Shown here piece by piece: positions 4,995-32,011 of a stretch of DNA of 35,346 nt. The stretch covers positions 1 through 35,346 of IMG/VR virus record IMGVR_UViG_3300025327_000102. One strand, 5' to 3'. Source of the DNA: a virus. The notes under the pieces are model-generated. The model worked only from the letters and a program-made list of their open reading frames with translations, was not told the origin of the DNA and ran no database searches. The position numbers were made by a program, and so were the translations under genes. Position 1 is the first letter of the stretch. Each line of letters opens with the position of its first letter.

Positions 4995-5000
4995 CGATGA

Positions 5001-5018: not shown

Positions 5019-5030
5019 CCGAGTCAGCGA

Positions 5031-5059: not shown

Positions 5060-5108
5060 GCGACCTTCGGGGTCCAACCGACCGATGAACATGCTATCAG
5101 ACGGAGAA

Positions 5109-5132: not shown

Positions 5133-5181
5133 CTCAATCCGACGTCCAGCCCACTGGAACGCCCGCATCCACGCAAGCTGG

Positions 5182-5211
5182 ACTTTAGGCCTCGTCGGCC
5201 TTCGGTGTCAA
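5182..5211 (-). promoter_or_regulatory. Leftward sigma-70-like promoter for the 83-aa gene
   Basis: On the minus strand TTGACA (5206-5211) is followed after 18 bases by TAAAGT (5182-5187). The spacer holds an interrupted inverted repeat, AGGCC-TCGTC-GGCCT on the + strand. The -35 box begins three bases after the stop codon of the upstream gene. The match to consensus makes this one of the best promoters in the window. Confidence 0.65.
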
Positions 5212-5214
5212 GGA

Positions 5215-6042
5215 TCAGTTGCCAGCCCCGAGGTGCCATGGATTGCCGCTGCTAACACCCTGCAGAAAGCGGATGAACTCGAAGATCCCGATGCCTTCAT
5301 CCGAGGCGTCGATGCCTCCGGCCGTCAGGGCGACGTGGCTGACTGCGCCATTGATGTCGAGCCCAGAATAGGTCGAGAGCAGAACCCAACTGAGGCCGTC
5401 GAGAGATGACCAAGCGGTGATCGCGTTGCTCGTCGCACATGTCAGGGCGATGTAGAGCGTGCCGCTATGCCCGAAGGCTAAGGAAGTGACCGTGCCAGCC
5501 GATCCATTGTTGACCGAGAAGGCTCGGAGCTCGAAGTGGTCGCTGTCCCAACCAAGCTCGACGAGGATGCCGTCCACGGGGAAGTCCTGCGACGCGGTCG
5601 GGGTCGTGTTCTCGATGAAGAGCCTCGCCCGGAGTGTGTTGGCGCCCCCAGCGGCGAGTCGGATGAGACGAACCTTGGTAAAGACGGCCCAACGTGTGCC
5701 ACTCGAGGGAGCGAACGACCGATAGCACTTCATCGTGTTGGCGCCCGATAGGGCCTGCATGACGAGCGCGCTCGGGATGTCGGTGTCGGCATTCCACGTC
5801 GGGTTACTGGGGTTCGCGCCTTCCTGCCATTCGCCGAGGGAGGCGTTCGTCGGGGATCCGCTCGAGGCTTGGAACGTCCAACCCGTCATCGATGCTGAGT
5901 CGAACTCCATGTTGATGGAGTCCGGGGAGGCTGGCGGCTCATCCATCTTTGTCCACGACAGCCCGCCACCCAGATGGACCTCGTCCCATTCGGTTGCGCT
6001 GATACCGCCGGGGGCTGCCGGCGTGGCGTGGGTGATGCTCAC
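5215..6042 (-). CDS. Beta-rich tail/surface protein, 275 aa
   Basis: The N-terminus (about 45 residues, Pro/Ala/Gly-rich) is followed by a domain of roughly 220 residues with the strand pattern of a LamG/concanavalin jelly roll ('MTGWTFQASSGSPTNAS', 'AVFTKVRLIRLAAGG', 'ILVELGWDSDHFELRAFS'). Such domains occur in phage tail fibres and other virion appendages that touch sugars. The ATG overlaps the preceding stop by four bases. Substrate and location are inferred. Confidence 0.7.
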   Translation of the reverse strand: MSITHATPAAPGGISATEWDEVHLGGGLSWTKMDEPPASPDSINMEFDSASMTGWTFQASSGSPTNASLGEWQEGANPSNPTWNADTDIPSALVMQALSGANTMKCYRSFAPSSGTRWAVFTKVRLIRLAAGGANTLRARLFIENTTPTASQDFPVDGILVELGWDSDHFELRAFSVNNGSAGTVTSLAFGHSGTLYIALTCATSNAITAWSSLDGLSWVLLSTYSGLDINGAVSHVALTAGGIDASDEGIGIFEFIRFLQGVSSGNPWHLGAGN

Positions 6043-6335
6043 CAGCGTCTCGTCAGGTAGAGATACAGGAAGTAGAGCTGTGGGATCGCGAGGGCCGCGA
6101 TCATGAGCAGAGAGAGAAGAAACAGGGTTTGTTCATCGAGCTGGTCGCGGGCGACGAACCTGATGTACCCGAGGACATAGAGCGTCGTCAGACCCATCGA
6201 GATACCAGCCCGCTCGCGGAGGACGCCGACCCCCCGATTGGAGATAGCCGCTACGAGGAGGATTGCTGTGACCATGATGGTCACGATCAGGCTGAGGGTC
6301 ATCAGGCCGATGATGGCCGCCACTTCGAGGCTCAC
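6039..6335 (-). CDS. Three-segment membrane protein, possible holin, 98 aa
   Basis: Hydrophobic segments lie near residues 6-32, 47-62 and 71-95, and the protein ends with a short basic tail. The start is GTG, overlapping the preceding stop by four bases (GTGA). Length and the number of segments fit a holin, and a second small membrane protein is encoded two genes upstream, but no lysin is visible in the window to support a lysis cassette. Confidence 0.65.
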   Translation of the reverse strand: MSLEVAAIIGLMTLSLIVTIMVTAILLVAAISNRGVGVLRERAGISMGLTTLYVLGYIRFVARDQLDEQTLFLLSLLMIAALAIPQLYFLYLYLTRRW

Positions 6336-6505
6336 TTCCGTCTCTTCCCAGCCTGTTCGTATGCCTGAACGAGTGCCCCCTGATTGCCCTTCAGCACTTC
6401 GATCGCCCGCAGCGCCCTCGACTTGGTCTCGGCTGTCTTGGCCTTTTCTGCATCCACTTCGGACTTGAGTTGCGTTTCCTCTGACCGGTCAGGTGGGCGG
6501 CTCAT
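6332..6505 (-). CDS. Short charged helical protein, 57 aa
   Basis: The frame starts with ATG at 6505 and ends in TGA at 6332, with four-base overlaps on both sides (ATGA upstream, GTGA downstream). The protein is almost entirely Lys, Glu, Ala and Arg with helix-forming spacing ('LKSEVDAEKAKTAETKSRAL') and ends 'GKRRK'. It sits between two membrane-protein genes, so it may act with them. No family is recognised. Confidence 0.6.
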   Translation of the reverse strand: MSRPPDRSEETQLKSEVDAEKAKTAETKSRALRAIEVLKGNQGALVQAYEQAGKRRK

Positions 6506-6795
6506 CTGCCTCGCCCCTCCCTTCGCCCCCGATCTCGCTCCCCTTGCTCTCGAAGCGTCCTGAGCGCCTCGGTGTCGAGCGTATTGCGCGTCTCGAGGGC
6601 CTCAGCCATCTTCTCGGTGGTCAGGTTCGCGTCACGCCAACCCGCGAGCGCGGCTGCTGTCGCTGCCTTCTGATCTTCGAGCCTGCCACGAGGAATGATG
6701 CGCTCGGTGACGAAGAGCCACAAGAGCAGGACGGCCCCAAACGTCAGACCGACGGGTCCGAGAAGGATGTCGAGCGAGGACGCATCGAACGGCAC
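6502..6795 (-). CDS. Small membrane protein with a charged cytoplasmic tail, 97 aa (holin-like)
   Basis: The GTG at 6795 lies after the terminase stop and gives 'MPFDASSLDILLGP', a single hydrophobic segment at about residues 11-30, then a long helical charged tail. This arrangement, one membrane segment followed by 'ERIIPRGRLEDQK...WRDAN', is common in small phage membrane proteins that are often labelled holin-like. A longer frame into the terminase gene (to 6969) is open but reads as shadow. It overlaps the next start by four bases. Confidence 0.65.
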   Translation of the reverse strand: MPFDASSLDILLGPVGLTFGAVLLLWLFVTERIIPRGRLEDQKAATAAALAGWRDANLTTEKMAEALETRNTLDTEALRTLREQGERDRGRREGRGR

Positions 6796-6808
6796 ATCGC
6801 CTAGCGTA

Positions 6809-8404
6809 TCACCGGTTCCTGAGCTTGCCGAAGAAGAAACTGCCGCCACCGAGCTGCATCGAGAAGCCCTCGGCGTCGACGAGATCATCGTGTCCTTTCG
6901 GGAAGCCCATCTGCTCTCGCTCGAGGAGGCCATTCTTGAGTGAGGCATGGTGCCAGACCTTGTGGCCACGGTACTTCTCGGCGACCGCAGAAGCCCTCGT
7001 CCGCTTGTCGGAGTCCGTCTGGTACTTGACGACCGGGATCCGAGGATATTGGTCCATCATCTCGGCCACGATCGTCGACTGGAACTGGACCGACTCGATG
7101 GGCACAGAGCCGATGCCGGGTGTCTCCGAGTAGCGCATCGCGATGTAGTCCGAGTGTCCGGCGCCGATCTTGTCGCGGTGCTCGCGCATCACAAAGAAGT
7201 TCCCATCGCGGTCCTCAGCAGTCGTGATGGCTGCCGTGAAGTCGGCCCGCTCCTTGACCGAGCTCGCGAGGTCGATGCCCAATCGAGTCGTATATGACCG
7301 ACCATCCGGAAGCTCCCCCCGTGGATCCCCATGCGGCGTCCCGTAGTACTGATACCAGTGGCGTTGGAAGAGGTCGCCGCTGATCACGCCAGTCGTGTCG
7401 TTCTGCATCGAGAGGTCGAAGAGCGAGGGGTTCTTGGCCCGCTCGGAGAGCAGGAACTCGACCGGCCAGAGCTCCTCCCAGTAGGAGATGAAGCCGTCCC
7501 GCCGAACGAGGACCGGACGCCCCTCGTCGTCATACTCGGAGACGTCTGGGCCTTCGTCTTCGATGAGGGCCTTCATGACGATGGTCTTGAAGCCATACCC
7601 GGGCTCACCGTTGTCCGTCAGCTGGCCGATAGGGGTCATGAGGATCTCGTAGAGATCGCCATCTGCCCAGCGGGTCCCGAAGACGATCGTCACGCCCTGA
7701 GCCACGACCCGTCGACTGAGCGGGTTGTCGAACCAGCTCCTGACTTTCTCTCTCTGGTCGAGCGTGTCCGTGTTGTCCTTGCCGAGAAGGTCGTCGCAGA
7801 GCAGGACATCGAAACGCTTCGAGGCGACCTGTCCGCCTGTGCCGCCGGCGAAGATGGTCAGATCCTTGCTGGCTGACCACTTGGAGTCCCGCCTGAGCCA
7901 TTCGCCGGCCGTCCACCTCGAGCCGATGAGGTTGCCGAAGAGCTCGCGGAAGTGGTCGTTGGACTCATACGTCGCCATGATCGCCCGACTGAAGGCATCG
8001 GCGAACGGAGCCGTCTGGCTGAAGAGCCCGACGCGGACGTCCTTGAAGAGGGCAATCAGCCAGCTCAGGAAGATCGTGTTGCCCCACGTCGTCTTGGCTG
8101 AGCCTGCCGGCATCAGAATGAGCGTATTGGTCTTCGTGTAGATCGCGCTCAGGATCGCCCGGCACATCTCCACGTGATGCGCTTCCGGGCGGTAGCCGAA
8201 GACGTACTCACCGAAGGCGAGGAGTCCCTCGAGCGAGTTAGTTGGGGCGAGCGCCCTCAGCGTCTGGGAGTGAACCAGATCCCACTGTTCTGGCGTGAGC
8301 TGCTCTGGATCGGCCTCGAGAGATGCCAGCCAGTCGTTCGAGGACTGCAATGCCGAGGTCGGACTCTCCGTCGACGTTGACGTTGACGTTGGCGTTGGCG
8401 CCAA
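6809..8404 (-). CDS. terL: Terminase large subunit (ATPase plus nuclease), up to 531 aa
   Basis: TerL cuts concatemeric DNA and pumps it into the capsid through the portal. The ATPase half shows an atypical Walker A 'MPAGSAKTTW' (about residues 98-107), as in many phage terminases, a Walker B 'FDVLLCDDLLG' (about 198-208) and 'VFGTRWADGD' as a likely coupling segment. The nuclease half shows 'LGIDLASS' (Asp about 378) and 'KGHDDLVDA' near the C-terminus, matching the RNase H-like metal-binding acidic residues. The start is uncertain: TTG at 8404 and TTG at 8350 are in frame, both overlapping the small-subunit gene by more than 100 bases. Confidence 0.95.
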   Translation of the reverse strand: MAPTPTSTSTSTESPTSALQSSNDWLASLEADPEQLTPEQWDLVHSQTLRALAPTNSLEGLLAFGEYVFGYRPEAHHVEMCRAILSAIYTKTNTLILMPAGSAKTTWGNTIFLSWLIALFKDVRVGLFSQTAPFADAFSRAIMATYESNDHFRELFGNLIGSRWTAGEWLRRDSKWSASKDLTIFAGGTGGQVASKRFDVLLCDDLLGKDNTDTLDQREKVRSWFDNPLSRRVVAQGVTIVFGTRWADGDLYEILMTPIGQLTDNGEPGYGFKTIVMKALIEDEGPDVSEYDDEGRPVLVRRDGFISYWEELWPVEFLLSERAKNPSLFDLSMQNDTTGVISGDLFQRHWYQYYGTPHGDPRGELPDGRSYTTRLGIDLASSVKERADFTAAITTAEDRDGNFFVMREHRDKIGAGHSDYIAMRYSETPGIGSVPIESVQFQSTIVAEMMDQYPRIPVVKYQTDSDKRTRASAVAEKYRGHKVWHHASLKNGLLEREQMGFPKGHDDLVDAEGFSMQLGGGSFFFGKLRNR

Positions 8405-8867
8405 AGTTGATGCCCTCCTCAGGCGAACTGGATGCGCGACCCATCAGGGCGCCCAAGCGATCGATCAGCGTCGAGACGTCGCGGATCCCGATCCGATACT
8501 TGCGCTCGAAGTGTGTCTTCCCATCGGGGCCCGCGACCTCAACGAGCAGCTTGGCCGTTTGGACTGCCGACAGGATCGCTTCGTCGATCAGATCGAGGGC
8601 ATGATCGACGACATCGGCCTCCTTGACCCGGCGGGCGGCCTCTCTGTCGGCGAGAACGGTGATCACCTTGTTCGCGGAACGATCCTGAAGCTCGGCACGC
8701 TTGTCGTACCACGTGCGACCCTGACCATCCTTCTTTCTGGCCTGAAGGTGGAGCGAGCTCACGCGTTCCTGCGGAATGTCGTGCCTGCGAGCGAGCTCTC
8801 GGACCGACATCTTGCCGCGCACGAACTCCGTCTCGAGGGCGATGTAGTCGTACTTGAACGCTGACAT
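8238..8867 (-). CDS. Terminase small subunit-like DNA-binding protein, 209 aa
   Basis: The N-terminus has a helix-turn-helix typical of phage small terminases ('MSVRELARRHDIPQERVSSL', about residues 20-40), followed by helical segments. This subunit recognises the packaging site and recruits the large subunit. The gene lies directly upstream of terL. Its C-terminal ~55 residues are encoded in the overlap with terL, after a hexamer-repeat tract encoding alternating Asn-Val. The tail is Arg/Ala-rich and may not be conserved. Confidence 0.75.
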   Translation of the reverse strand: MSAFKYDYIALETEFVRGKMSVRELARRHDIPQERVSSLHLQARKKDGQGRTWYDKRAELQDRSANKVITVLADREAARRVKEADVVDHALDLIDEAILSAVQTAKLLVEVAGPDGKTHFERKYRIGIRDVSTLIDRLGALMGRASSSPEEGINFGANANVNVNVDGESDLGIAVLERLAGISRGRSRAAHARTVGSGSLPDAEGARPN

Positions 8868-8882
8868 GCGCGCAGGGTAGCA

Positions 8883-9083
8883 CTAGGCCCGGAGACTGAC
8901 GACCTCATCGGCGATGCGCACATCATGACCTGAGATCCTGATCCAGAGGAGATCGTGGGCCACCTGCTTGCGCGTCAGACCGGTCTTCTCCACGAGCCTG
9001 TCGATATGGATCGGCGCCTGCAGGCGGAGCGTCAGGAGGACCAAGCTGGCCTCGAGGCGGGCTTCAAGGTCCGTCTTCGCCAT
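8883..9083 (-). CDS. Winged-helix-like small DNA-binding protein, 66 aa
   Basis: The protein reads as one small winged helix: 'IHIDRLVEKTGLTRKQVAHDL' is a good helix-turn-helix, followed by a short beta region ('ISGHDVRIADEVVSL'). It lies immediately upstream of the small terminase gene. It may regulate late genes or take part in packaging-site recognition; neither is shown. It overlaps the preceding gene by 20 bases. Confidence 0.65.
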   Translation of the reverse strand: MAKTDLEARLEASLVLLTLRLQAPIHIDRLVEKTGLTRKQVAHDLLWIRISGHDVRIADEVVSLRA

Positions 9084-9291
9084 CTTCTTCTCCCGCTCCT
9101 AGCCTGTCCCATTGATCCAGCCTTTCGTTGTACCGCCAATCGACAGTGACGTTCCCGAGGCCTGTCTTCGAGACGGTTCCGTCGCTGCGGCAGACGATGG
9201 CATCCCACTCGATGATCCCGAGCCAGAGAACGACCTCCGGCACCGAGCCAACGATAGCGTGTGCCCGGATCGGCTCACTGAACAAGCTCAT
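9064..9291 (-). CDS. Unknown small protein, 75 aa
   Basis: It begins with ATG at 9291 inside the end of the preceding gene (17-base overlap) and ends 20 bases inside the following one. The sequence has hydrophobic strands ('AHAIVGSVPEVVLWLGIIEW') and an acidic tail. No motif or family is recognised. Confidence 0.6.
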   Translation of the reverse strand: MSLFSEPIRAHAIVGSVPEVVLWLGIIEWDAIVCRSDGTVSKTGLGNVTVDWRYNERLDQWDRLGAGEEDGEDGP

Positions 9292-9640
9292 CGGTCACCT
9301 CCGGGGGCAGGCTGTCGGCAGCCGCATGGAGTGCCTGCCTGAGGGTTGCCCCATCACCAGCAGCAAGGAGTTCGCGATCCATCGTGTCGGTCTCGAGGTT
9401 CGGGATCAGGCCGTAGATCTTGATCCGCGTGAGCTTGGAGATGCCCGGAACCTCGATCTCGACCGTTGCCTCGACGAACTGCCAGACCGTCAGTCGAACG
9501 GCATCCATGGCGTCGAGGACGAGCTCAACTCGGCTGACCTTCTCGAGCTTCTGGCCACCGATCTCGATGACCGTATTCTTGCCGTGTGGACCACCGGTGA
9601 TCTTGGCCATCGGCCAACGGGTCTTGTCGATGACCTTCAC
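9275..9640 (-). CDS. Unknown beta-rich protein, 121 aa
   Basis: The GTG start overlaps the upstream stop by four bases; an internal ATG at about 9607 ('MAKITGGPHGK') is an alternative. The middle ('VSRVELVLDAMDAVRLTVWQ', then 'VEIEVP') is strongly beta-like, resembling small phage proteins that fold as beta barrels. The C-terminus is helical. No function is recognised. Confidence 0.65.
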   Translation of the reverse strand: MKVIDKTRWPMAKITGGPHGKNTVIEIGGQKLEKVSRVELVLDAMDAVRLTVWQFVEATVEIEVPGISKLTRIKIYGLIPNLETDTMDRELLAAGDGATLRQALHAAADSLPPEVTDELVQ

Positions 9641-9891
9641 TTCTTGACCACCCTTCTGAAGGCCGTGGGGCCGACATTGCCCTCGATCAGAGCGATGACG
9701 TCGCCCTTGGCGAAGAACGCCTTGCGAACCACCGCCCCGGCCTTGTTCAGCTCGTGGACTTCGATGAAGGCCTCGTTCGGCCTCGGCTGAAGCCAGTCAA
9801 CAGAACCGCCGATGGACGACGTCTGCATGCGATGCGAACCGGAGGTCTCCCCGGTCCGATAGGTCACGTCGATGAAGTCTCCTCGAGCCAT
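9637..9891 (-). CDS. Unknown small basic protein, 84 aa
   Basis: ATG at 9891; stop overlaps the next start by four bases. The protein is beta-rich with a basic C-terminus ('AFRRVVKK') and no cysteines or catalytic motif. It belongs to the run of small accessory genes upstream of the terminase. Confidence 0.6.
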   Translation of the reverse strand: MARGDFIDVTYRTGETSGSHRMQTSSIGGSVDWLQPRPNEAFIEVHELNKAGAVVRKAFFAKGDVIALIEGNVGPTAFRRVVKK

Positions 9892-9904
9892 CCTCGATCC
9901 TCCT

Positions 9905-10135
9905 TCAGTTGACCAGACCGTTCCGTATGGTCTGCTCGTACTTGCTGTCCTCGATGTTGAAGTTGAGATCGACCAGCTTGCCGGGGTGGGCGTCTCGGTA
10001 GTGCGACATGGAAATGGCGGTCATGAGGGCGATCGCCTCATCTTCCGATCGGCAGTTCTCGAAGCGGACGGCGAAGTGGCAACCCTCCTCTTCACAGTGG
10101 TTCGTCCCGCCCCAGACGTCGACCTTGTCGTTCAT
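9905..10135 (-). CDS. Unknown small protein with a Cys/His pair, 76 aa
   Basis: It carries His-Cys-x4-Cys-His near residues 13-20 and another Cys in 'ENCRSEDEAIALM', which could bind a metal. The remaining part is helical. The ATG overlaps the upstream stop by four bases. No family recognised. Confidence 0.6.
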   Translation of the reverse strand: MNDKVDVWGGTNHCEEEGCHFAVRFENCRSEDEAIALMTAISMSHYRDAHPGKLVDLNFNIEDSKYEQTIRNGLVN

Positions 10136-16176: not shown

Positions 16177-16490
16177 CCACGCTCCTTGAGCCAGCGGTTC
16201 GCCTCAGCATCGGCCACGATCACCTCGCCATCGATGTAGGCCTCGAGCGCGAGACGCCCGAGTCGGATCTCCATGCGCATCGTGGATCCTGACACGCCTG
16301 CTCGCCGTCCGATCTCGGTGAGGCTCATCCCGACCTTCTGGTCAGCAGGCCCGAAGATCGTCCTCTCGAACGCCTCGCAGCCCTGACACCAACTCCCGAT
16401 CCTCGACAGCGCACGAGATGCAGCCGTCGCCCTGTCCCAGCGGGTATAGGCCGCCTTCCAGCGATGAATGTGACGTTCCGTCATGGCCAT
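16173..16490 (-). CDS. Helix-turn-helix regulator, first gene of the leftward arm, 105 aa
   Basis: The C-terminal half contains 'SLTEIGRRAGVSGSTMRMEI' and 'IVADAEANRWLKER', the pattern of an excisionase/MerR-like winged helix. The N-terminal half has Trp, Cys and His residues ('GSWCQGCEAFER') that might bind zinc. ATG at 16490 or 16484 are both possible. It is the first gene downstream of the leftward divergent promoter, a usual place for a phage regulator. Confidence 0.65.
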   Translation of the reverse strand: MAMTERHIHRWKAAYTRWDRATAASRALSRIGSWCQGCEAFERTIFGPADQKVGMSLTEIGRRAGVSGSTMRMEIRLGRLALEAYIDGEVIVADAEANRWLKERG

Positions 16491-16519
16491 CCCATCGTCA
16501 GCGTAGTGGTGATGCCCAA

Positions 16520-16548
16520 ACGGTATCACATGGTGACGCCCATTGCAA
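16520..16548 (-). promoter_or_regulatory. Candidate leftward divergent promoter
   Basis: On the minus strand TTGCAA (16543-16548) is followed after 17 bases by TACCGT (16520-16525). The -10 box is a weak match. A TCAC-ATG-GTGA inverted motif on the + strand (16526-16536) lies in the spacer. It would start the leftward arm about 23 bases before the first gene. Confidence 0.4.
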
Positions 16549-16714
16549 GCTGCACGATCTGGCTGGAGAAGCGCGGCGCGACGCCCGCCCCAGCTGCTGC
16601 GGGAGGTCGCGACGTGGGGGGGATCGCGCCGCCAGCACCCGCCCACCGTGGACCTGAGGCGGCCACAGGGCCAGCGGGGAGCCCATCGCCGGATCATCCA
16701 CCCGCCCAGCACGC

Positions 16715-16743
16715 TTGCAAGGCGCGGGCAGTCGTGAGACAAT
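16715..16743 (+). promoter_or_regulatory. Candidate rightward divergent promoter
   Basis: TTGCAA (16715-16720) is followed after 17 bases by GACAAT (16738-16743). The next ATG (16750) lies six bases after the -10 box, where transcription should begin, so the message may be leaderless. The same GCTTGCAA appears at the leftward promoter. Confidence 0.45.
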
Positions 16744-16749
16744 GGACGC

Positions 16750-16815
16750 ATGCCAGCCGCCGCCGACACGAGACACGCGCCGTGCCCGGCTGGCCGCTCG
16801 GAGACCGTCGCATGA
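16750..16815 (+). CDS. Candidate 21-aa leader peptide, possibly leaderless
   Basis: The frame MPAAADTRHAPCPAGRSETVA ends in TGA overlapping the ATG of the next gene (ATGA). Its own ATG coincides with the predicted transcription start of the 16715-16743 promoter and has no ribosome site. Its translation could load ribosomes for the following gene. Confidence 0.4.
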   Translation: MPAAADTRHAPCPAGRSETVA

Positions 16816-17033
16816 CCGCCCTGAGCAGGCGCATCGAGGCGGCACAGGCCGCCCAGCGTGAGCGTGACGCACGCTTGCGCACCGACATCCTCGCCGCCCG
16901 TGAGGCGGGCGAGACCGACACCGGATCAGGCCTCGTCGACCTCGTCGGCGCACTGGCCACCATCGCCGCTGCCCTCGGCATCCTCGCCGGCGTCGCGGCC
17001 ATCGTCGCGGCTGGCATCGGGCTGGTGCTGTGA
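16812..17033 (+). CDS. Small protein with a C-terminal membrane segment, 73 aa
   Basis: Residues 1-35 are charged and helical ('RRIEAAQAAQRERDARLRTD'); residues 42-73 are hydrophobic, Ala/Gly/Ile-rich ('GALATIAAALGILAGVAAIV'), and run to the last residue. This predicts a tail-anchored or hairpin membrane protein. First gene of the rightward arm. Function unknown. Confidence 0.65.
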   Translation: MTALSRRIEAAQAAQRERDARLRTDILAAREAGETDTGSGLVDLVGALATIAAALGILAGVAAIVAAGIGLVL

Positions 17034-17248
17034 TGCGTCGATCAGCGGCTCGGGCGGGCTGTGGCCGCACCATCACCCGTGGCGTTCCGCCAAGGGTTCC
17101 CCTGACTGAGAGCCTGTCAGAGGATGTCCTGTACCGGCTGGCCCCGGACCATGACCCGGATGGCCTGACGCTTCACCGAAGGGATGCAAGCCTCCACCTC
17201 ACCGACTTCACGATGACCGGTCACCTGACCGGAGAGAGGATCGCCTGA
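17033..17248 (+). CDS. Unknown small basic protein, 71 aa
   Basis: TGATG overlaps couple it to the genes on both sides. The N-terminus is Arg-rich ('MRRSAARAGCGRTITRG'); the rest is polar with several His residues ('LHRRDASLHLTDF'). No motif recognised. Confidence 0.6.
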   Translation: MRRSAARAGCGRTITRGVPPRVPLTESLSEDVLYRLAPDHDPDGLTLHRRDASLHLTDFTMTGHLTGERIA

Positions 17249-17451
17249 TGGCAGCGACCATTGCGACCGCAATCGGCAACGACTCCACCCGCCGCAAGGA
17301 GACCCACCGACTCGGATCACAGTCGGCCGAGGGTCGCGCCGCGACATGGCGCACATTCGCCTCGGTCATCGTCACCGCCGATGGTCGATGGTCAGTCCTC
17401 GTCAAGCGTGATGGGTTGGCCATCCACTTCGCCGAAGGAGGGGCCGAGTAA
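17248..17451 (+). CDS. Unknown small protein, 67 aa
   Basis: It starts at ATG 17248 overlapping the previous stop (TGATG) and stops at TAA overlapping the next ATG (TAATG). It has an N-terminal polar part and a beta-like C-terminal half ('FASVIVTADGRWSVLVKRDG'). Function unknown. Confidence 0.6.
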   Translation: MAATIATAIGNDSTRRKETHRLGSQSAEGRAATWRTFASVIVTADGRWSVLVKRDGLAIHFAEGGAE

Positions 17452-17531
17452 TGGACCCGCTCATCACCCTGACCGCCCTGCTGGTCGTGTGGGTCACCCT
17501 CGTGGGGCTGGCCCGGGAGCGGCTGGCATGA
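17451..17531 (+). CDS. 26-aa single-pass membrane micro-protein
   Basis: The protein is essentially one membrane segment ('LITLTALLVVWVTLVGLA') with a short charged end 'RERLA'. TAATG and ATGA overlaps lock it between its neighbours. Such micro-proteins are common in phages as regulators of membrane partners, but no role is shown. Confidence 0.55.
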   Translation: MDPLITLTALLVVWVTLVGLARERLA

Positions 17532-17722
17532 CCCACCCGTATGAGCCCTGCGAGCATCCCGGTCGCCACGGGTACACCCTGCCCGGAGACGCCGAGGAAT
17601 ACGCGTTCTGCGAGCGCTGCCGTGACGTCGAGGGGCGCACGTCCACCGCAGCGCTCCTGACGCACCTGTCCACCCAGCCGAGCAGCGGCCCGATGCGGGC
17701 CACCACAAGGAGGCTCACGTGA
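17528..17722 (+). CDS. Small zinc-binding-type protein, 64 aa
   Basis: 'YEPCEHPGRHGYTLPG' and 'YAFCERCRDVEGR' together offer Cys, His, His, Cys, Cys, a plausible zinc site, over residues 8-32. The C-terminal half is basic. ATGA upstream and GTGA downstream overlaps. Similar small zinc proteins recur in this window. Confidence 0.6.
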   Translation: MTHPYEPCEHPGRHGYTLPGDAEEYAFCERCRDVEGRTSTAALLTHLSTQPSSGPMRATTRRLT

Positions 17723-17964
17723 TCACAGTCGACCTCACCCCCGGCGCTCAGGAGCAGGAGAACCTGTTGGCCTTCTTCGCCGCACAGGTCATGGACGACA
17801 TCAAGGTCGCCCGCAAGAGTTCGGATCGCCGCATCCTGAGGTCCATCGTCGACCTCGCATTCACCCTCGGCTTCAACGCCGCCTCGCGGTCCGACGTCGG
17901 CACCGGCACCGGTCGAGTGCAGGCCATGGCCCTGCGCCAGCGGCTGGCGGACAGCGTCCGATGA
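17719..17964 (+). CDS. Unknown helical protein, 81 aa
   Basis: GTG start overlapping the previous stop by four bases, with AAGGAGG about six bases upstream. It is largely helical ('LLAFFAAQVMDDIKVARKSS') with a C-terminal basic helix. No family recognised. Confidence 0.6.
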   Translation: MITVDLTPGAQEQENLLAFFAAQVMDDIKVARKSSDRRILRSIVDLAFTLGFNAASRSDVGTGTGRVQAMALRQRLADSVR

Positions 17965-18218
17965 CACCCACCATCACCGCCCATGGACCCGAGTACCTCG
18001 CCGAGCCTGATCGGGCGACCGTCATCGCCAACGGGATCGTCGTCGACGTCATCGCCAACGAGGACGGCTCAGTCTACGTCGAGGTCTACGCCTACGACGG
18101 GCGCAAGTCTCAGGCCGTCGTCTCCGAAGCCTACATCGACGCCCCCCATCCCAGCTTCCGCCTGACCCTCGCCGACCGGCCCGAGGTCACGGCTGCGCAA
18201 GAGGCAGGCCTGCTGTGA
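17961..18218 (+). CDS. Unknown beta-rich protein, 85 aa
   Basis: ATG overlaps the upstream stop (ATGA). The protein is beta-rich ('RATVIANGIVVDVIANEDGS', 'VYVEVYAYDGR'). It starts with a predicted N-terminal strand and has no cysteines. Unknown function. Confidence 0.6.
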   Translation: MTPTITAHGPEYLAEPDRATVIANGIVVDVIANEDGSVYVEVYAYDGRKSQAVVSEAYIDAPHPSFRLTLADRPEVTAAQEAGLL

Positions 18219-18481
18219 CACGCGAGACCCTGCAGACCCTCATCCGGGGGAAGATGGACCCGTGCGCCATCGTGGTCGACTTCACCGAGCACGAGCCCGG
18301 GACGGGTGTCGTGGCCTACGTCCGGGACACCGACTTCCAGCCCTTCGTGACCCAACGATGGGCAACCCACCGGACGGATGGCAGTCCGGTGGAGACCGGC
18401 ATCATGCTCTTCAGCGGGGAGTATGAGGATCACGCTGGCCGCTGGATGATGGACTATCACGAGCGTGCTGGCACTCCCTGA
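18215..18481 (+). CDS. Unknown small protein, 88 aa
   Basis: GTG start overlapping the previous stop by four bases. The protein mixes strands ('CAIVVDFTEHEPGTGVVAYV') and polar loops, with several His and Trp residues near the end. It is the last gene before the first hairpin-plus-repeat module. Confidence 0.6.
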   Translation: MTRETLQTLIRGKMDPCAIVVDFTEHEPGTGVVAYVRDTDFQPFVTQRWATHRTDGSPVETGIMLFSGEYEDHAGRWMMDYHERAGTP

Positions 18482-18493
18482 CGCCGACTGGTG

Positions 18494-18511
18494 GGCCGAG
18501 GCGACTCGGCC
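18494..18511 (+). terminator. 7-bp GC hairpin preceding the first repeat copy
   Basis: GGCCGAG (18494-18500) and CTCGGCC (18505-18511) form a perfect stem with a GCGA loop. It follows the previous stop by 12 bases and precedes the 51-bp repeat. There is no uridine run. A comparable CGAGC-CTC-GCTCG hairpin (18869-18881) precedes the second repeat copy. Confidence 0.4.
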
Positions 18512-18517
18512 TGCCCC

Positions 18518-18568
18518 CGGTGCCCGGCAGATGACCGGACCCCCTGAGCAGGAGGACACCTGATGATG
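18518..18568 (+). repeat. 51-bp direct repeat, copy 1 (translation-start module)
   Basis: Identical over 51 bases to 18891-18941. It contains an AGGAGG ribosome site and ends in TGATGATG, the start of the downstream gene. Inside it is a 10-codon frame, MTGPPEQEDT, from ATG 18531, whose TGA overlaps the downstream ATG. Confidence 0.9.
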
Positions 18569-18841
18569 CGCCGCTACCCCGACCTGACCCACCACGAGCA
18601 AGCGCAACAGCTCCGCGAGGCCGCCGAGGCGCACGCCAGCGACCCCGTCTCCGACGTGCTCGAAGGCTTGGCCGAATACCTCGACACCACGGCCGACGAT
18701 CTCGACCGGAAGGCGTACCAAGAGGTGGCCATGGCCTACGTCGCCGGCTACGAAACCGGCGCCTTTACCCGCACCGCGACAAAGCCCGAGGACCGCCGCG
18801 CCGTCTGGCGTGTCATGGCCGACGTCGGGCTGACCCGCTGA
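18563..18841 (+). CDS. Helical protein behind the first repeat module, 92 aa
   Basis: It starts at ATG 18563 inside the repeat, seven bases after AGGAGG. The protein is almost all helix ('HHEQAQQLREAAEAHASD', 'VLEGLAEYLDTTADDLDRK', 'EVAMAYVAGYETG'). No family recognised. It may be related in control, not in sequence, to the gene behind the second repeat. Confidence 0.7.
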   Translation: MMRRYPDLTHHEQAQQLREAAEAHASDPVSDVLEGLAEYLDTTADDLDRKAYQEVAMAYVAGYETGAFTRTATKPEDRRAVWRVMADVGLTR

Positions 18842-18890
18842 CCCGCTCCCGGCTTCCGCAGGGCTGGCCGAGCCTCGCTCGACCGGCCAA

Positions 18891-18941
18891 CGGTGCCCGG
18901 CAGATGACCGGACCCCCTGAGCAGGAGGACACCTGATGATG
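18891..18941 (+). repeat. 51-bp direct repeat, copy 2
   Basis: Exact copy of 18518-18568, again with AGGAGG, an internal MTGPPEQEDT frame (ATG 18904, stop 18934-18936) and the downstream start ATG at its end. Bases outside the 51 do not match the first copy. Confidence 0.9.
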
Positions 18942-19352
18942 TCGACCGCGACCATCGCCGATCTGCAGCGGCAGGCGGCACGGGAAGCACGCCGGGAGCG
19001 GCGTGAGCCCGTCATCTTCTACAACGACGAGGACGTCAGTGAGTCGGTCACGACGATGCCCTTCCTCGGCGACTACGTGCCGCAGGGCTGGCGATCCGCC
19101 CTCTGGACCGACCTCCCGGGCGAGGACCCCCACGGCCATGGCCACTACGGCGCTGGTCAGGTCCTTCTCTTCGCCGACGCAACCGGCTGGGGCGACGAGG
19201 ACGAGCCCGCCCTCAGTCTCCGCCAGCTGGTGACCACCGTCAACCGGATGAACCACGAGGCCTACGCCAACGGGCGCTTGACCCTCGGCTGGGCCATCTG
19301 GGAGGCCGGCGAGTTTCAGGTCCACATCAAGGCCTACGTGAAGGTGGCCTGA
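18936..19352 (+). CDS. Unknown protein behind the second repeat module, 138 aa
   Basis: ATG 18936 (or 18939) lies in the repeat after AGGAGG. An N-terminal basic helix ('LQRQAAREARRERREP') is followed by a mixed region with acidic loops and a C-terminal beta-rich part ('TLGWAIWEAGEFQVHIKAYV'). No motif gives a function. Confidence 0.7.
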   Translation: MMSTATIADLQRQAAREARRERREPVIFYNDEDVSESVTTMPFLGDYVPQGWRSALWTDLPGEDPHGHGHYGAGQVLLFADATGWGDEDEPALSLRQLVTTVNRMNHEAYANGRLTLGWAIWEAGEFQVHIKAYVKVA

Positions 19353-19354
19353 CG

Positions 19355-19639
19355 ATGCGCACCGTTTCAGTCCGCTACCTCGTCCCCGTCTACGCGACCG
19401 TCGATCTCGACGCGGAGCCCGACGAGCAAGGCAACTGGCCAGACGAGGCCGTCGTGGAAGTCCGCCTCGACACCCTGCAAGACCATCCCGAGGCCTTCCT
19501 CGATGCTGAGGGTGATGTCCTCGCCGAGTCCTACGTGACCGGAGCCGACAATGTCGATCCCGGCAGTCTGACCATCGAGGATCGAGCCAAAGTCCTCGAC
19601 ATCGTCGAGAACGCGGTCTGGCCCGCTTGGGACCGATGA
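19355..19639 (+). CDS. Unknown acidic protein, 94 aa
   Basis: It starts two bases after the previous stop with 'MRTVSVRYLVPVYATVDLDA', a beta-strand-rich beginning, and continues acidic to the end. A similar N-terminal pattern is common in small phage proteins of unknown function. The stop overlaps an ATG (ATGA) of a 29-codon frame. Confidence 0.65.
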   Translation: MRTVSVRYLVPVYATVDLDAEPDEQGNWPDEAVVEVRLDTLQDHPEAFLDAEGDVLAESYVTGADNVDPGSLTIEDRAKVLDIVENAVWPAWDR

Positions 19640-19725
19640 CCATCAGCGCACCCAGCCCCCGGGCCATGCCCGTGCAGCCCGATGCCATACGGCAAGGGCT
19701 GGTGCTTCACCGATCACGGGCCTGA
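19636..19725 (+). CDS. Candidate 29-aa ORF of doubtful reality
   Basis: ATG overlaps the previous stop (ATGA) and the frame ends at TGA 19723-19725. The peptide is Pro/Arg-rich without a clear motif and overlaps the start of the following gene. It may serve only to bring ribosomes to ATG 19682. Confidence 0.25.
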   Translation: MTISAPSPRAMPVQPDAIRQGLVLHRSRA

Positions 19726-20507
19726 CGGCTTGCCCGGGAACCGGCTTCGGAGGCCTCATCTGCAGCGATTGCAGTGAGGCCTTCAGCCGGGTCGTCTGGC
19801 AGACACCCCTCGTCGCACATGCCGATCACGCGGAGCGTGAGACCGAACGGGCCGAGACCAAGGCCGACCCTGAGGCCAAAGCGCGCCGAGACGAGGCCAT
19901 GGCCTACGTCAAGGCGTACACCGGCAGCTGGGGTCTCATCCTCGACATCCGAGCGGATCGCCGATGGGGCACCAAGTACATGCGCCTCTCGGAGCGTCAG
20001 GTCGAGGTCATCCTCGCCGCCAAGGCGCGGGATGTTTCTCGAGCCGCCGAGGCTACCGCCATCCCCGGGCACGATGAGGCCGTGGCCCTCGCCAGAACAT
20101 GGGCTGACGCCTTGGGGTCCTTCCAGCAGGCGATGCATGCCAAGGTCGTCGCCGGTGAGCCGCTCAGCCCGAACATGGTGGCCGCGATCCTGCGCAATCG
20201 GCCTTCCACCACCGGGCCAGCGGCCGAGGGCTGGTACTGGAAGGATGACGTCGTCTACAAGGTGCAGGCAGCCCGGGAGTCCGGGCACCTGTACGCCAAG
20301 CAGCTGGTGGTCGAGGACGGCGCAGGCCGCTGGGAGCTAGCCCGTGGCATGGCCTACCAGCTGACGGAGACGGATCGACTCTCACCCGAGGATGCAGCCG
20401 CCTTCGGCAAGCTGTACGGGGTGTGCGCCGTCTGCGGACGCACCCTGACCGACGAGACGTCCATCGAGCGCGGCATCGGGCCGGTCTGCCTGAGCAGGCT
20501 CGGTTGA
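19682..20507 (+). CDS. Zinc-finger protein with a DUF6011-type C-terminus; reading frame broken near 19731
   Basis: The main frame is open from about 19640 to 20507 but has no ATG before 19899. The reading 'MPYGKGWCFTDHGPDGLP' from ATG 19682 continues sensibly only if the frame shifts +1 at the CCC codon (about 19731-19733), giving 'GTGFGGLICSDCSEAFS'. Together these supply Cys, His, Cys, Cys for a zinc site. The C-terminus 'GVCAVCGRTLTDETSIERGI' with 'GPVC' after it is a DUF6011-like zinc finger. If there is no shift, the gene starts at 19899 (202 aa). Function unknown; nucleic-acid binding is likely. Confidence 0.65.
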
Positions 20508-26480: not shown

Positions 26481-26694
26481 CCTTGAGCCCTACAGCCAGA
26501 AGCGACTGACGCTCGAGCTCAGGTATGCCATCGATGTGGCCAAGAAGGCCCCCAGCGAGCCAAACATCCAGCGCGTCAAGGAGCTGATCGATGACCACCC
26601 CCTCGGGGTCCGATCCCACCACCTCGTCTACAACCTCGGAGAAGCCAGACTCTACTGGCTCTACGAGAACGGCCTCCTCTCGGGACCAGCGTAG
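26452..26694 (+). CDS. Unknown basic helical protein, 80 aa
   Basis: ATG 26452 has AGGAGG five bases upstream. Arg-rich N-terminus ('PRRQTRRRSLEPYSQKR') and helical remainder ('RVKELIDDHPLGVRSHHLVY'). It could bind nucleic acid. It shares 104 bases with the next frame. Confidence 0.6.
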   Translation: MPRRQTRRRSLEPYSQKRLTLELRYAIDVAKKAPSEPNIQRVKELIDDHPLGVRSHHLVYNLGEARLYWLYENGLLSGPA

Positions 26695-27145
26695 GGAGGA
26701 TCTCCTCAGACGAGTCAAGGATCTCGAGATAGAGGTCGATGCCTTCATCATGGAGATAAAGAGGCAGAGTCCGAAAGATCGGCCCCTCCGGTCCATCAGG
26801 GACTTCTTCTCCAAGCGCCCAGCGATGCCAGCCGAGATCAAGATCGACGATGTCGAAGGCGTGCTGATTACGACCGATGGAGAAACACCGATGGGCTCTC
26901 CGATCGGCCTGTCGATCCACGGCGAGATCATCGTCTTCCAGTTCCGGGTGCCCGGGGACGCGCTGGTCGGCGAGCTCCGTCATGGGGCTGTTCATCGCCT
27001 GCGCATGGGCAAGAGCACATGGGTCACGAACATTGATCTCGAAACCGATGTCCACGCCGACGAGATCGTGACTGTCGTGCAGGCCGTGACCGTCGCGGCC
27101 GGCGGGAACACCGGGACCCCGATGCCTGAAGGGCTCGACGAATGA
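26591..27145 (+). CDS. Unknown protein with coiled-coil and beta-rich halves, up to 184 aa
   Basis: The first ~30 residues are Ser/Thr-rich and overlap the previous gene, so the start may really be later, for example ATG 26750. Residues 33-60 form a charged helix ('LLRRVKDLEIEVDAFIMEIK'); the C-terminal part is beta-rich ('SIHGEIIVFQFRVPGD'). ATG 26591 has AAGGAG seven bases upstream. No family recognised. The end of the gene is the first copy of a 22-bp repeat. Confidence 0.6.
   Translation: MTTPSGSDPTTSSTTSEKPDSTGSTRTASSRDQRREDLLRRVKDLEIEVDAFIMEIKRQSPKDRPLRSIRDFFSKRPAMPAEIKIDDVEGVLITTDGETPMGSPIGLSIHGEIIVFQFRVPGDALVGELRHGAVHRLRMGKSTWVTNIDLETDVHADEIVTVVQAVTVAAGGNTGTPMPEGLDE
27124..27145 (+). 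repeat. 22-bp direct repeat, copy 1
   Basis: Identical to 27351-27372. It covers the last codons of one gene ('PEGLDE' and stop) and the start codon of the next (ATG 27142). Confidence 0.85.
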
Positions 27146-27336
27146 GCTACCGCGTCGTTCGCTTCTACTTCGACAAGCCCGGCTACCAACGCACGATCAT
27201 CGCGCGCTGCTCCCTCGAAGAGGCGCAACGCCATTGCAGTGACCCTGAGACGAGCAGCAACACGGCCAAGGGGTCGTGGGCTCGTCGCCGGACAAGGCTG
27301 CATGGCCGATGGTTCGACGGGTACGAAGAACGATGA
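27142..27336 (+). CDS. Conserved small phage protein ('RFYFDKPG...DPETSS...WFDGYE' type), 64 aa
   Basis: 'VVRFYFDKPGYQRTIIARCS', 'EEAQRHCSDPETSSNTA' and 'GRWFDGYEE' match, from memory, a widespread small phage protein of unknown function in which 'LEEAQ..C.DPETSS' and 'WFDGYE' are constant. The gene is flanked by 22-bp direct repeats, so it may have been acquired as a unit. Confidence 0.75.
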   Translation: MSYRVVRFYFDKPGYQRTIIARCSLEEAQRHCSDPETSSNTAKGSWARRRTRLHGRWFDGYEER

Positions 27337-27350
27337 CCAACCAGAAGGAG

Positions 27351-27372
27351 GCCTGAAGGGCTCGACGAATGA
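27351..27372 (+). repeat. 22-bp direct repeat, copy 2
   Basis: Exact copy of 27124-27145, here noncoding apart from the ATG of the next gene (27369). The bases after it differ from those after copy 1. Confidence 0.85.
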
Positions 27373-27512
27373 AGCTGAACGACAACCTCGGACGGCCACG
27401 ATACGTCGACCGCCACGCACATCAGGCACACCGCAGGGGGACGCGTCGCCAGAGGAGGGCGTACGCGAGGATCGTCCGCCTGATCAAGAAGTACGGCATC
27501 AAGGAGTCGTGA
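27369..27512 (+). CDS. Very basic 47-aa protein
   Basis: The frame from ATG 27369 to TGA 27510-27512 is strongly basic ('HAHQAHRRGTRRQRRAYARI', ending 'KKYGIKES'), typical of small nucleic-acid-binding phage proteins. The start is inside the second 22-bp repeat; the stop overlaps the next ATG (TGATG). Confidence 0.6.
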   Translation: MKLNDNLGRPRYVDRHAHQAHRRGTRRQRRAYARIVRLIKKYGIKES

Positions 27513-27706
27513 TGGAGACCAAGAAGGAGCTCTCGAAGAAGGCTCGCCCGGGCGAGATGACGATCCGGGGTTCTCTCGAGCCGAACGTCATCATCGTTCC
27601 ACCGGAGGAGGTCGAAGCAATCCTCGACCGAGCCGTCGATGAGGGGATCATGGATCAGGAGGCCCGAGACTCGATCAGGGTAATCCGAGAATGGCCTGAG
27701 ACATGA
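27512..27706 (+). CDS. Unknown small charged protein, 64 aa
   Basis: Starts at ATG 27512 (TGATG) with AAGGAG upstream. Basic N-terminus ('METKKELSKKARPGEM') and acidic helical C-terminus ('EVEAILDRAVDEGIMDQEAR'). No family recognised. Confidence 0.65.
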   Translation: METKKELSKKARPGEMTIRGSLEPNVIIVPPEEVEAILDRAVDEGIMDQEARDSIRVIREWPET

Positions 27707-28437
27707 GCATCGTCGTCCTCTGCCCATCGAGAGGAAACCCCGGAGCTCTGGCGGAAGCCGCCGAGAGCTTCATCAGGACACGCCGATCGAGGACCACGGA
27801 GATGGCGGCAGTGATCGATCTCGATGATCGGTCCCTCGGCGACTATCGAGACATCATCAGGGACAAGGGCCTGCTCACAGTGGAGGTCCCTGCCGAAGCC
27901 GGCGGCAACATGAACCGGGCGCTCAACTGGGCCGTGGGCGGCAGCGATGAGACCGGCGTCCAGCCACCTGATCCCCTGACAGACGAGTTCGGGATCATCG
28001 GCTTCATCGGGGACGACCATCGTTTCCGAACACCGGGCTGGGACCTACTCGTCGAGGATGCCCTCGATCTCGGAGGCATCGCCTATGGGGACGATCTCGC
28101 CCAGCGGCAGGCGCTCCCGACTCAGGTCTTCATCAGCTCGAAGATCGTCGAGGCACTCGGCTGGATGGGGCTGCCCGGGGCCAAGCATCTCTACCTCGAC
28201 AACGCGTGGCGGACGCTCGGAGAGGGCGCCGGCTGCCTCTACTACCTGTCGAACGTGGTGATCGAGCACCTCCACCCGGCACACAACCCGAGCGTCCCGT
28301 GGGACGAGAACCACAGACGCGTCAACACGAAGGAGATGTACGAACACGACGCTCAGGTCTACGCCAAGTGGCTCGAGCATCAGGCATCGATCGATATCCA
28401 GATCGTTCGGGAGGTGCTTCGTGCCCACCATCATTGA
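27703..28437 (+). CDS. Glycosyltransferase-like protein (GT-A fold), 244 aa
   Basis: Starts 'MSIVVLCPSRGNPGALAEAA', a GT-A nucleotide-sugar binding beginning, and has 'GFIGDDHRFRTPGWDLLVED', the acidic metal-binding segment and following helix usual in family 2 transferases. It would transfer a sugar from a nucleotide-sugar to a virion, DNA or cell-surface acceptor. First of three such genes in a cassette. ATGA overlap upstream. The substrate cannot be read from the sequence. Confidence 0.75.
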   Translation: MSIVVLCPSRGNPGALAEAAESFIRTRRSRTTEMAAVIDLDDRSLGDYRDIIRDKGLLTVEVPAEAGGNMNRALNWAVGGSDETGVQPPDPLTDEFGIIGFIGDDHRFRTPGWDLLVEDALDLGGIAYGDDLAQRQALPTQVFISSKIVEALGWMGLPGAKHLYLDNAWRTLGEGAGCLYYLSNVVIEHLHPAHNPSVPWDENHRRVNTKEMYEHDAQVYAKWLEHQASIDIQIVREVLRAHHH

Positions 28438-29603: not shown

Positions 29604-29809
29604 GCCTGTCACTCGACCGCACGATCGGGATGGACATGGCCATGACCTACCGCACATTGGCGCACCGTACTCCGCCCTGCCTGTGGGTCGACCACTATTG
29701 GGTCCAGTTCATCCACGTTTCGATACCCGGCACGACGCTCTTGATCCTCTGTCGCAACTGTGGGCGGACGCCGCTCGAGGCGCTCGGTTCACTTCCGGTG
29801 GTGCCATGA
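29600..29809 (+). CDS. Unknown small protein between two glycosyltransferases, 69 aa
   Basis: ATGA overlaps on both sides. The protein has hydrophobic strands ('YWVQFIHVSIPGTTLLILCR') and 'LCRNCGRT', a CxxC that may bind zinc. No family recognised. Confidence 0.65.
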   Translation: MSLSLDRTIGMDMAMTYRTLAHRTPPCLWVDHYWVQFIHVSIPGTTLLILCRNCGRTPLEALGSLPVVP

Positions 29810-30504
29810 TCCCCGTGCTCGGGGTCCCATGCCTGCGGCGCGTCGATCTGCTCGCCAAGATGGTTGCCAGCATCGACGTCGAGGTCGACGTTCTGTACGT
29901 CATCGACAACACCATAGATGGCTCAATCGATCCTGCCGCGCTCAAGGTCAACCCACTTGTGGACAGGGTCGCCGTCGACCATCAAGGGCGGAACCTCGGT
30001 GTCTCCGCCTCGTGGAACAGGATCATGGAAGAGTCGGCGCCATGGTGGGCGATCATCAACGACGACATCGCCTTCGCGGCCGGCGACCTCGAGCGACTCG
30101 CCGAGTTCATGGAGGACGGCGGGACGCTGGGGATGCTGATGACCCCGTCGGCCTTCGCCGTCTCAGCGTGGACGGTCAAGACGGTCGGAACCTTCGATGA
30201 GAACTTCCACCCGGCCTACTTCGAGGACAACGACTACGTCTATCGCTGCGGGCTGCTCGGGGTCACGGTCACGGCGTTGCCGGCCAACTACCACCACGAA
30301 CGATCGGCCACGATCAACTCGAGCTCGCAGCTGAGAAGCGAGAACCATCGGACGTTCCCGCAGAACCGCGACTACTACGTCCGCAAGTGGGGCGGCATGC
30401 CCCTGCAGGAGACCCACCGAACACCCTTCAACAAGGGCGGATCGCCGAAGGACTGGGAACTCGAGCCCGGGCGGATCCAGAAGCTGACATGGAGAGGGAC
30501 ATGA
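29806..30504 (+). CDS. Family 2 glycosyltransferase (rhamnosyltransferase-like), 232 aa
   Basis: The core 'LYVIDNTIDGS', 'GRNLGVSASWNRIMEESAPW' and 'AIINDDIAFAAGDLERLAEF' gives the GT2 nucleotide and metal sites, and 'FDENFHPAYFEDNDYVYRC' matches the acceptor-side signature of rhamnosyl-type GT2 enzymes. The C-terminal 50 residues are polar. ATGA overlap upstream. Confidence 0.85.
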   Translation: MIPVLGVPCLRRVDLLAKMVASIDVEVDVLYVIDNTIDGSIDPAALKVNPLVDRVAVDHQGRNLGVSASWNRIMEESAPWWAIINDDIAFAAGDLERLAEFMEDGGTLGMLMTPSAFAVSAWTVKTVGTFDENFHPAYFEDNDYVYRCGLLGVTVTALPANYHHERSATINSSSQLRSENHRTFPQNRDYYVRKWGGMPLQETHRTPFNKGGSPKDWELEPGRIQKLTWRGT

Positions 30505-31091
30505 GACGCAGGCTCTACCCGTCGGCAACAGTTGACTACGCAACCATGCCGGCCCGCTCCAACACCCAGTGGCGCGACCATCAGGCTCGCGTGCTGGTGA
30601 CCGCCGGTCTGATCGCGTGGTACAAGCCTCGCATCATCCTCGATCCCGCCTGTGGGGATGCGTCGATCGTGGATGCCGCCTACGGACTCCATCCATTCTC
30701 CGTCGCGTGGCTCGGAGATCTCAGCCCACAGAACGCGCAACCGGCCATCACCGCCCCCCATGGGGCCGTTTGGACGACTGACGCCCTACACATGCTCCGG
30801 ACACAGGGCGGTCAGGAGGTTGATGTCGTCGTCCTCACGGAGATCCTCGAACACGTTGAAGACCCGGAGCTGCTGCTCGTGGCCGCTCGTGGACAAGGCA
30901 AACACCTCGTGGCCTCGTCGCCGGTCGAGGAGCCACCGGGCGTCAACAACCCCGAGCACCTGTGGTCCTTCGGCATCGACGGCTACCGGGACATGCTCAT
31001 CGCTACTGGTTGGAAGCCTGACACCATGATCGAGCTCAGCTTCACCGAACCCGGCTGGCCCTACCGCTTCCAGATCTGGGGTGCGTCATGA
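30501..31091 (+). CDS. Class I SAM-dependent methyltransferase, 196 aa
   Basis: 'IILDPACGDASIVDAAY' is methyltransferase motif I, followed by 'VDVVVLTEILEHVEDPELLL' (motif II/III region). The fold transfers methyl from S-adenosylmethionine. Between a glycosyltransferase and an epimerase it may methylate a sugar or peptide in that pathway, but DNA methylation is not excluded. It has no clear DPPY/NPPY motif, which argues against an N6-adenine or N4-cytosine DNA enzyme. Confidence 0.8.
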   Translation: MRRRLYPSATVDYATMPARSNTQWRDHQARVLVTAGLIAWYKPRIILDPACGDASIVDAAYGLHPFSVAWLGDLSPQNAQPAITAPHGAVWTTDALHMLRTQGGQEVDVVVLTEILEHVEDPELLLVAARGQGKHLVASSPVEEPPGVNNPEHLWSFGIDGYRDMLIATGWKPDTMIELSFTEPGWPYRFQIWGAS

Positions 31092-32011
31092 AGGTCCTGA
31101 TCACAGGCGCGGCCGGCTTCCTTGGACGCCACTTCCTAGCCCACCATCGTCTCCTCGACGACACGGTCTGGGCCTTCGACGACATGTCTGCGTCTCACGC
31201 CGAATGGAGCGAGGGCATCATTCGAGAGGACGCAGCTGTCGCCTTCGCCGAGCTCTGGGATGAGCGCTTCGATCTCGCCTATCACTTCGCAGCGCCGGTC
31301 GGCGGACGAGAGATGATCGAGGGCGACCCGATGTACAACGCTCGCTCTCTCGAGCTCGACTCGGCCTTCTTCCGATGGGCCATCGGGCACACCGAGGTGG
31401 CCGTCTATCCGAGCTCCAGCGCGGTCTATGGGGCCATCCTGCAGCGTAAGGACGCCGGGCAGCTTCATGAGGGCCGGTTCAACGCGGCCGATCCCAGCTG
31501 GCTAGCCCCAGACGAGCTCTATGGGTTCACCAAGCTGGCCGGCGAGATGTTGGCATGGAAGGCCACCCGCTATGGTCTCAACACGCTCTGCATCAGGCCG
31601 TTCTCAGGATATGGAGAAGGCCAACCAGACTCTTACCCGGTGACAGCGATCTGCCAACGGGCAATCGCCCGAGAGGACCCCCTTGTGATCTGGGGCTCGG
31701 GGCAGCAGAAGCGTGACCTCATCCATGTCTCGGACATCGTCGGGGCAACGACAAGCCGTCTCCGGGCCCCACTCACTGGCTACGAAACCATGAACATCGG
31801 CAGAGGCATCGGCATCACCTTCGAGTCGGTAGCCGCCATGGCCGCGAGCATCATCGGCTACCACCCGAAGATCGTGACTGATGAGTCGAAGCCCGAAGGC
31901 GTGATCAACCGGCGCGCGGACCCAACGCGAATGAGCTACTTCCACGAACCAGCCATCAACCTGAGAAGCGGGCTGGAGCGAGTCATCAGATGGCTGGAGG
32001 CCACGTCGTGA
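31088..32011 (+). CDS. NAD-dependent sugar epimerase/dehydratase, 307 aa
   Basis: An extended short-chain dehydrogenase: 'KVLITGAAGFLGRHFLAHHR' binds NAD, and 'VYPSSSAVYGAI' with 'ELYGFTKLAGEML' supplies the catalytic Ser and Tyr-x3-Lys. 'NTLCIRPFSGYGEGQ' and 'IWGSGQQKRDLIHVSDIV' match the sugar-nucleotide epimerase family. Normal length. It would supply a modified nucleotide-sugar to the transferases. Confidence 0.9.
   Translation: MKVLITGAAGFLGRHFLAHHRLLDDTVWAFDDMSASHAEWSEGIIREDAAVAFAELWDERFDLAYHFAAPVGGREMIEGDPMYNARSLELDSAFFRWAIGHTEVAVYPSSSAVYGAILQRKDAGQLHEGRFNAADPSWLAPDELYGFTKLAGEMLAWKATRYGLNTLCIRPFSGYGEGQPDSYPVTAICQRAIAREDPLVIWGSGQQKRDLIHVSDIVGATTSRLRAPLTGYETMNIGRGIGITFESVAAMAASIIGYHPKIVTDESKPEGVINRRADPTRMSYFHEPAINLRSGLERVIRWLEATS

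Follow-up and report, generated by a model that had tools for sequence, protein, structure and literature searches.

The window analysed here is the entire IMG/VR virus record IMGVR_UViG_3300025327_000102 (35,346 bases). Its left half carries portal and terminase genes on the minus strand, and its right half encodes FtsK-like, topoisomerase-like, glycosyltransferase, nucleotide-sugar epimerase and Erf-like annealing proteins on the plus strand. Searches of IMG/VR, GTDB contigs and phage records found no near relative of the record: the best match of the topoisomerase is 64% identical, an IMG/VR match of the FtsK protein is 43% identical, and the repeat region described below has no match among phage records. 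An Rfam scan across the window likewise gave no match. On the plus strand, genes for two glycosyltransferase-like proteins and one nucleotide-sugar epimerase-like protein (27703-28437, 29683-30504 and 31088-32011) suggest that DNA or the host surface is modified with sugars.

Two genes of the plus strand, here called A and B, are each headed by the same 51-bp sequence, CGGTGCCCGGCAGATGACCGGACCCCCTGAGCAGGAGGACACCTGATGATG, with a hairpin upstream (Table 1). The 51-mer is present in exactly two copies in the window, which are spaced by 373 nt and proved identical at all 51 positions both by script comparison and by repeat search, and it is the sole exact direct repeat of at least 24 nt in the window. 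A chance origin of the pair is excluded (about 4e-21 exact pairs of 51 nt expected). Both copies end exactly at the ATGATG starts of their genes, with 7 nt between AGGAGG and the first ATG, and divergence begins immediately at both edges of the repeat. The gaps that hold the two modules measure 81 and 94 nt; around them the spacing is tight, with 4-nt overlaps between the neighbouring genes on the left and 2 nt before the next gene. A preliminary description of positions 18494-18941, a span that comprises both copies and most of hairpin 1, had reported identical segments at the starts of unrelated genes, the AGGAGG and a frame MTGPPEQEDT with a stop overlapping the ATG in each, and a GC hairpin before each, and all of these are present in the DNA. 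An assembly artefact was rejected by reasoning only: had two regions been wrongly joined at a k-mer common to both, a single 51-mer would remain, not two.

Table 1. Coordinates of the start-associated repeats and neighbouring features in the window.
Feature	Position	Strand	Details
GC hairpin 1	18490..18515	+	directly 5' of copy 1; GGTGGGCCGAG-GCGA-CTCGGCCTGCC; RNA fold
51-bp repeat, copy 1	18518..18568	+	AGGAGG 18550-18555; ends on ATGATG; exact repeat
MTGPPEQEDT frame, copy 1	18531..18563	+	TGA 18561-18563 overlaps gene A ATG; probably incidental
Gene A	18563..18841	+	92 aa
Hairpin 2	18862..18888	+	5' of copy 2; GGCTGGCCGAG-CCTCG-CTCGACCGGCC; fold
51-bp repeat, copy 2	18891..18941	+	AGGAGG 18923-18928; ends on ATGATG; exact repeat
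MTGPPEQEDT frame, copy 2	18904..18936	+	TGA 18934-18936; probably incidental
Gene B	18936..19352	+	138 aa; function unassigned
22-nt repeat, copy 1	27124..27145	+	GCCTGAAGGGCTCGACGAATGA; coding tail of gene 26591-27145 and ATGA start of the 64-aa gene 27142-27336
22-nt repeat, copy 2	27351..27372	+	intergenic, before 47-aa ORF 27369-27512
Erf-like annealing protein (recombinase) gene	33219-34490		

Genes A and B are unrelated to each other (best blastp E 5.5; 18/60 identity just downstream of the repeats). Our searches detected no relatives of gene A, the GC content of which at the three codon positions (GC1/2/3 = 0.73/0.46/0.88) is like that of neighbouring genes. The only relative found for gene B lies at L004:7668-8111, with 39% identity, and because the alignment runs from residue 1 the predicted start of gene B at 18936 is well supported. 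In L004 a distance of 4 nt separates the start of this homologue from the stop of the ORF before it; a plain AAGGAG stands ahead of the start, and upstream of the gene there is no leader, no repeat and no gap. Long antisense ORFs that cover the repeats on the minus strand (18131-19015 and 18813-19688) were discounted, given that the conservation of gene B with L004 is in the sense frame and that the sense genes also have neighbour-like GC by codon position.

Hairpin 1 has 11 pairs and a tetraloop (z -3.9; 0/200 shuffles as stable), and hairpin 2 has 6+5 pairs with one mismatch (z -2.7; 1/200 shuffles as stable). They align with one inserted loop base and most pairs are kept; compared by eye, the arm positions at which they differ comprise a two-sided change of G.T to T.G, a one-sided change of T.G to C-G, and a pair broken from C-G to C.A. 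Common descent of the two hairpins is plausible but not established, because the similarity of the hairpin regions stands just at the 0.7-2.6% level against three controls. Their resemblance, with pairing kept, hints that the functional unit exceeds the 51-mer and has diverged outside it, and such a larger unit would point to selection on the 51-mer, or to its gene conversion, and against an origin of the repeat through insertion or duplication of a gene cassette.

The 10-codon frame ATGACCGGACCCCCTGAGCAGGAGGACACCTGA within each 51-mer has a TGA that overlaps the downstream ATG, and as the copies are identical its presence in both counts as one observation only. Among random 51-mers of window composition ending in TGATGATG, in which frames of 5-13 codons were counted, 7% carry such a frame started by ATG and 23% one started by ATG, GTG or TTG; among the window's real ATGs that a TGA overlaps, 14% (ATG) and 27% (ATG/GTG/TTG) carry frames of 5-20 codons. 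The leader ATG has no Shine-Dalgarno sequence (SD) in front of it. The copy 1 frame stays open over 37 codons and has a GTG farther upstream; that of copy 2 continues upstream through gene A in a different frame from the gene. A search of IMG/VR for the peptide MTGPPEQEDT, allowing all synonymous codons, gave no match. The combination of an initiation signal of its own and conservation of the frame, which would mark a regulatory uORF with translational coupling, is thus not what we see. The preliminary description had counted the leader ORF among the meaningful parts of the module; since the frame is common by chance, has no SD, is not found in IMG/VR and is missing before the gene B homologue, we regard it as probably incidental, a by-product with no dedicated role.

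These same observations weigh against the proposal that the leader peptide exerts control, its translation opening a structure that masks AGGAGG and its termination at TGATG handing ribosomes to the downstream gene. The overlap of stop and start would suit such a mechanism, as would the position of the leader across the SD, which is mostly paired in predicted folds (mean unpaired probability 0.18-0.31). However, several further starts of the window have SDs with comparable predicted pairing, the fold of the 51-mer is no more stable than those of its shuffled versions (z -0.75), and leader control of this kind is improbable. Quite improbable, too, is a two-part start element, composed of a pairing-conserved hairpin and an invariant 51-nt stretch of leader, SD and start, in which the translated leader would control access to the SD; if true, such an element would set early-gene expression in an uncharacterised phage.

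A different alternative is that the repeat is a DNA site, for replication, packaging or repressor binding, which lies at two starts by coincidence. Each copy has a short palindrome, CAGG-N6-CCTG, overlapping its SD, and the palindrome is absent elsewhere in the window, but it is expected 0.92 times by chance, which is the chance level, and in each copy the register with SD and ATG is kept, for which a DNA-only site would have no need. We find this explanation scarcely credible.

As the preliminary description recognised, the repeats recall the start-associated sequences (SAS) of cluster K mycobacteriophages while their sequence is different. In both cases an SD-bearing conserved sequence stands at the starts of unrelated genes in the non-structural half of the genome, with an inverted repeat upstream (PMC3203893). 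Both copies of the 51-mer occupy the translation-start position with an SD that would pair with 16S rRNA, as SAS do, and, as in the associated ESAS, an imperfect inverted repeat lies directly upstream in a large intergenic gap, although its arms differ in length and sequence. The cluster K consensus, the 13-nt GGGATAGGAGCCC, is found in neither copy at up to two mismatches, the SD core here being GCAGGAGGACACC. Furthermore, cluster K SAS are 13 nt long and dispersed in 11-19 copies (PMC3203893), whereas here 51 nt are repeated in two adjacent copies, in a record that is possibly partial, and the arms of ESAS generally do not support RNA pairing (PMC3203893), whereas the hairpins described here pair in both copies. 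Putative SigA promoters are contained in the ESAS of Adephagia (PMC11373665); in contrast, a scan of 16400-20000 found neither sigma-70-like promoters nor T-tailed terminators, and thus no SigA-like -35/-10 promoter inside the element here, although the host may use promoters of another type. The 51-bp repeat is not a member of the cluster K SAS/ESAS family, because the consensus, copy number and promoter are all at odds with it. Start-associated repeats accompanied by an upstream element also occur outside cluster K, in the Microbacterium phages of cluster EF, whose SAS is the 13-nt GGGAAAGGACCCC in ten copies and whose ESAS is centred on GTAGAG (PMC7302621), so that repeats of this kind are already known to come in unrelated sequences; sequence, copy number and ESAS all differ from the 51-mer.

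It is possible, if rather unlikely, that the 51-bp repeat is nevertheless a regulatory element of this type that co-regulates genes A and B, either through recognition by a factor of phage or host origin or by acting at initiation. Its layout follows that of SAS and ESAS, in which the non-structural half of the genome carries an inverted repeat within an unusually large gap, followed at the start by a conserved sequence that bears an SD (PMC3203893, PMC7302621); the long gaps amid overlapping neighbours and the alike, largely pairing-conserved hairpins are consistent with this. Two adjacent copies nevertheless compare poorly with the 11-19 dispersed copies of cluster K or the ten of cluster EF, no third, diverged copy of either end of the 51-mer is found within the possibly partial record at up to three mismatches, and the element is missing before the gene B homologue. 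A regulatory role is not established, given the two adjacent copies and the lack of a promoter.

On balance we lean towards the view that the pair of 51-mers arose when the small gene A, as a cassette with one start region, was inserted or duplicated. The 51-mer would then be a translation-start cassette, consisting of a strong SD, a 7-nt spacer and ATG, and gene A with one such start region would have been inserted into, or duplicated within, a rightward operon, presumably through recombination at short homology; the Erf-like annealing protein is no more than a suggestion as the agent. The outcome, repeat-gene A-repeat-gene B, would provide each gene with its own ribosome-binding site despite the long hairpin-containing gap, with the SD driving both gene A and gene B. 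Insertion or duplication is favoured because there are only two copies, because they flank a gene without detected relatives, and because a second, unrelated repeat in the window has the same geometry.

This second repeat is exact over 22 nt, its copies lying 227 nt apart, and about 1e-4 such pairs are expected by chance. It has no sequence relationship to the 51-mer, but the order of start region, small gene, start region and next gene is the same. The 64-aa gene between its copies belongs to a kind of small gene that travels, because a 51%-identical relative is carried by the Tunturiibacter phage Tunturi_3, which is unrelated. That the two start-flanking repeats of the window differ in sequence argues against a single recognition motif.

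A search for the 51-mer in related genomes, as the preliminary description had proposed, yielded no exact match in IMG/VR, no match in phage records, and no copy of its 31-nt core in GTDB contigs. A relative with a single-copy (empty) site was not found either, no close relative having turned up in IMG/VR, GTDB contigs or phage records, and the insertion is therefore one that we infer. Recent duplication or selection on every base had also been offered as reasons for the exact identity: our results lean to the former, in the sense of duplication or insertion, whereas selection on every base does not follow from two copies, since selection and recent origin are not separable from two copies in one genome.

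Comparable arrangements were described in mycobacteriophages by Pope and colleagues as repeats at mosaic boundaries (PMC3029335). In Island3, gene 68, which encodes 85 residues and has no homologues, lies between repeats of about 50 bp, and in LRRHood genes 43-46 are bounded by 29-bp repeats of which relatives have just one copy (PMC3029335). As in these phages, gene A is enclosed by a pair of short direct repeats located at gene ends or starts; the genes in Island3 and LRRHood are absent from relatives, and the Island3 case is, like gene A, a small gene without homologues. Unlike those repeats, the 51-mer is intergenic, carries the start codon and is preceded by hairpins, and no empty-site relative of it is known. 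The window shows twice, with unrelated sequences, a small gene flanked by duplicated start regions, so that a gene downstream of an insertion need not lose its ribosome-binding site. Repeats that are exact and associated with starts may thus mark cassette boundaries rather than recognition sites of a regulator, an alternative worth weighing where few-copy ‘start-associated sequences’ are reported.

To place the window among other phages, local exact repeats of at least 18 nt were collected from 82 phage fragments. In seven of 206 pairs each copy ends on a start with an SD, compared with about 0.03% expected at random positions, an excess far above chance that counts in favour of a cassette origin; three of the seven come from locus L003 and two from the window. 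Part of this excess must be due to the SD consensus itself, which cannot explain identity over 51 or 22 nt. An exact 24-nt repeat at L024:4687 and 4901 (214 nt apart) and an exact 21-nt repeat at L061:14568 and 14750 (182 nt apart), both on SD-bearing starts, are possibly duplicated start regions of the same kind.

Locus L003 (IMGVR_UViG_3300026552_000002, 67.8 kb), a distant contig that shares FtsK with the record, holds 13 copies of an 80-94 nt linker at 3957-9985. The linker, of the form CTGACC...hairpin...GGCC-GCCA-GGCC...CCACCCGAGAG...GATCATG, mostly spans from a stop codon to the start of the next gene, and its copies cluster upstream of the FtsK-like gene. One copy, searched against phage records, had no match, and the 7.2-kb region compared with plasmids matched almost only in the FtsK gene. 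The linker is a stronger start-associated element than the 51-mer of the window, and its hairpin shows compensatory changes at 9 of 17 predicted pairs.
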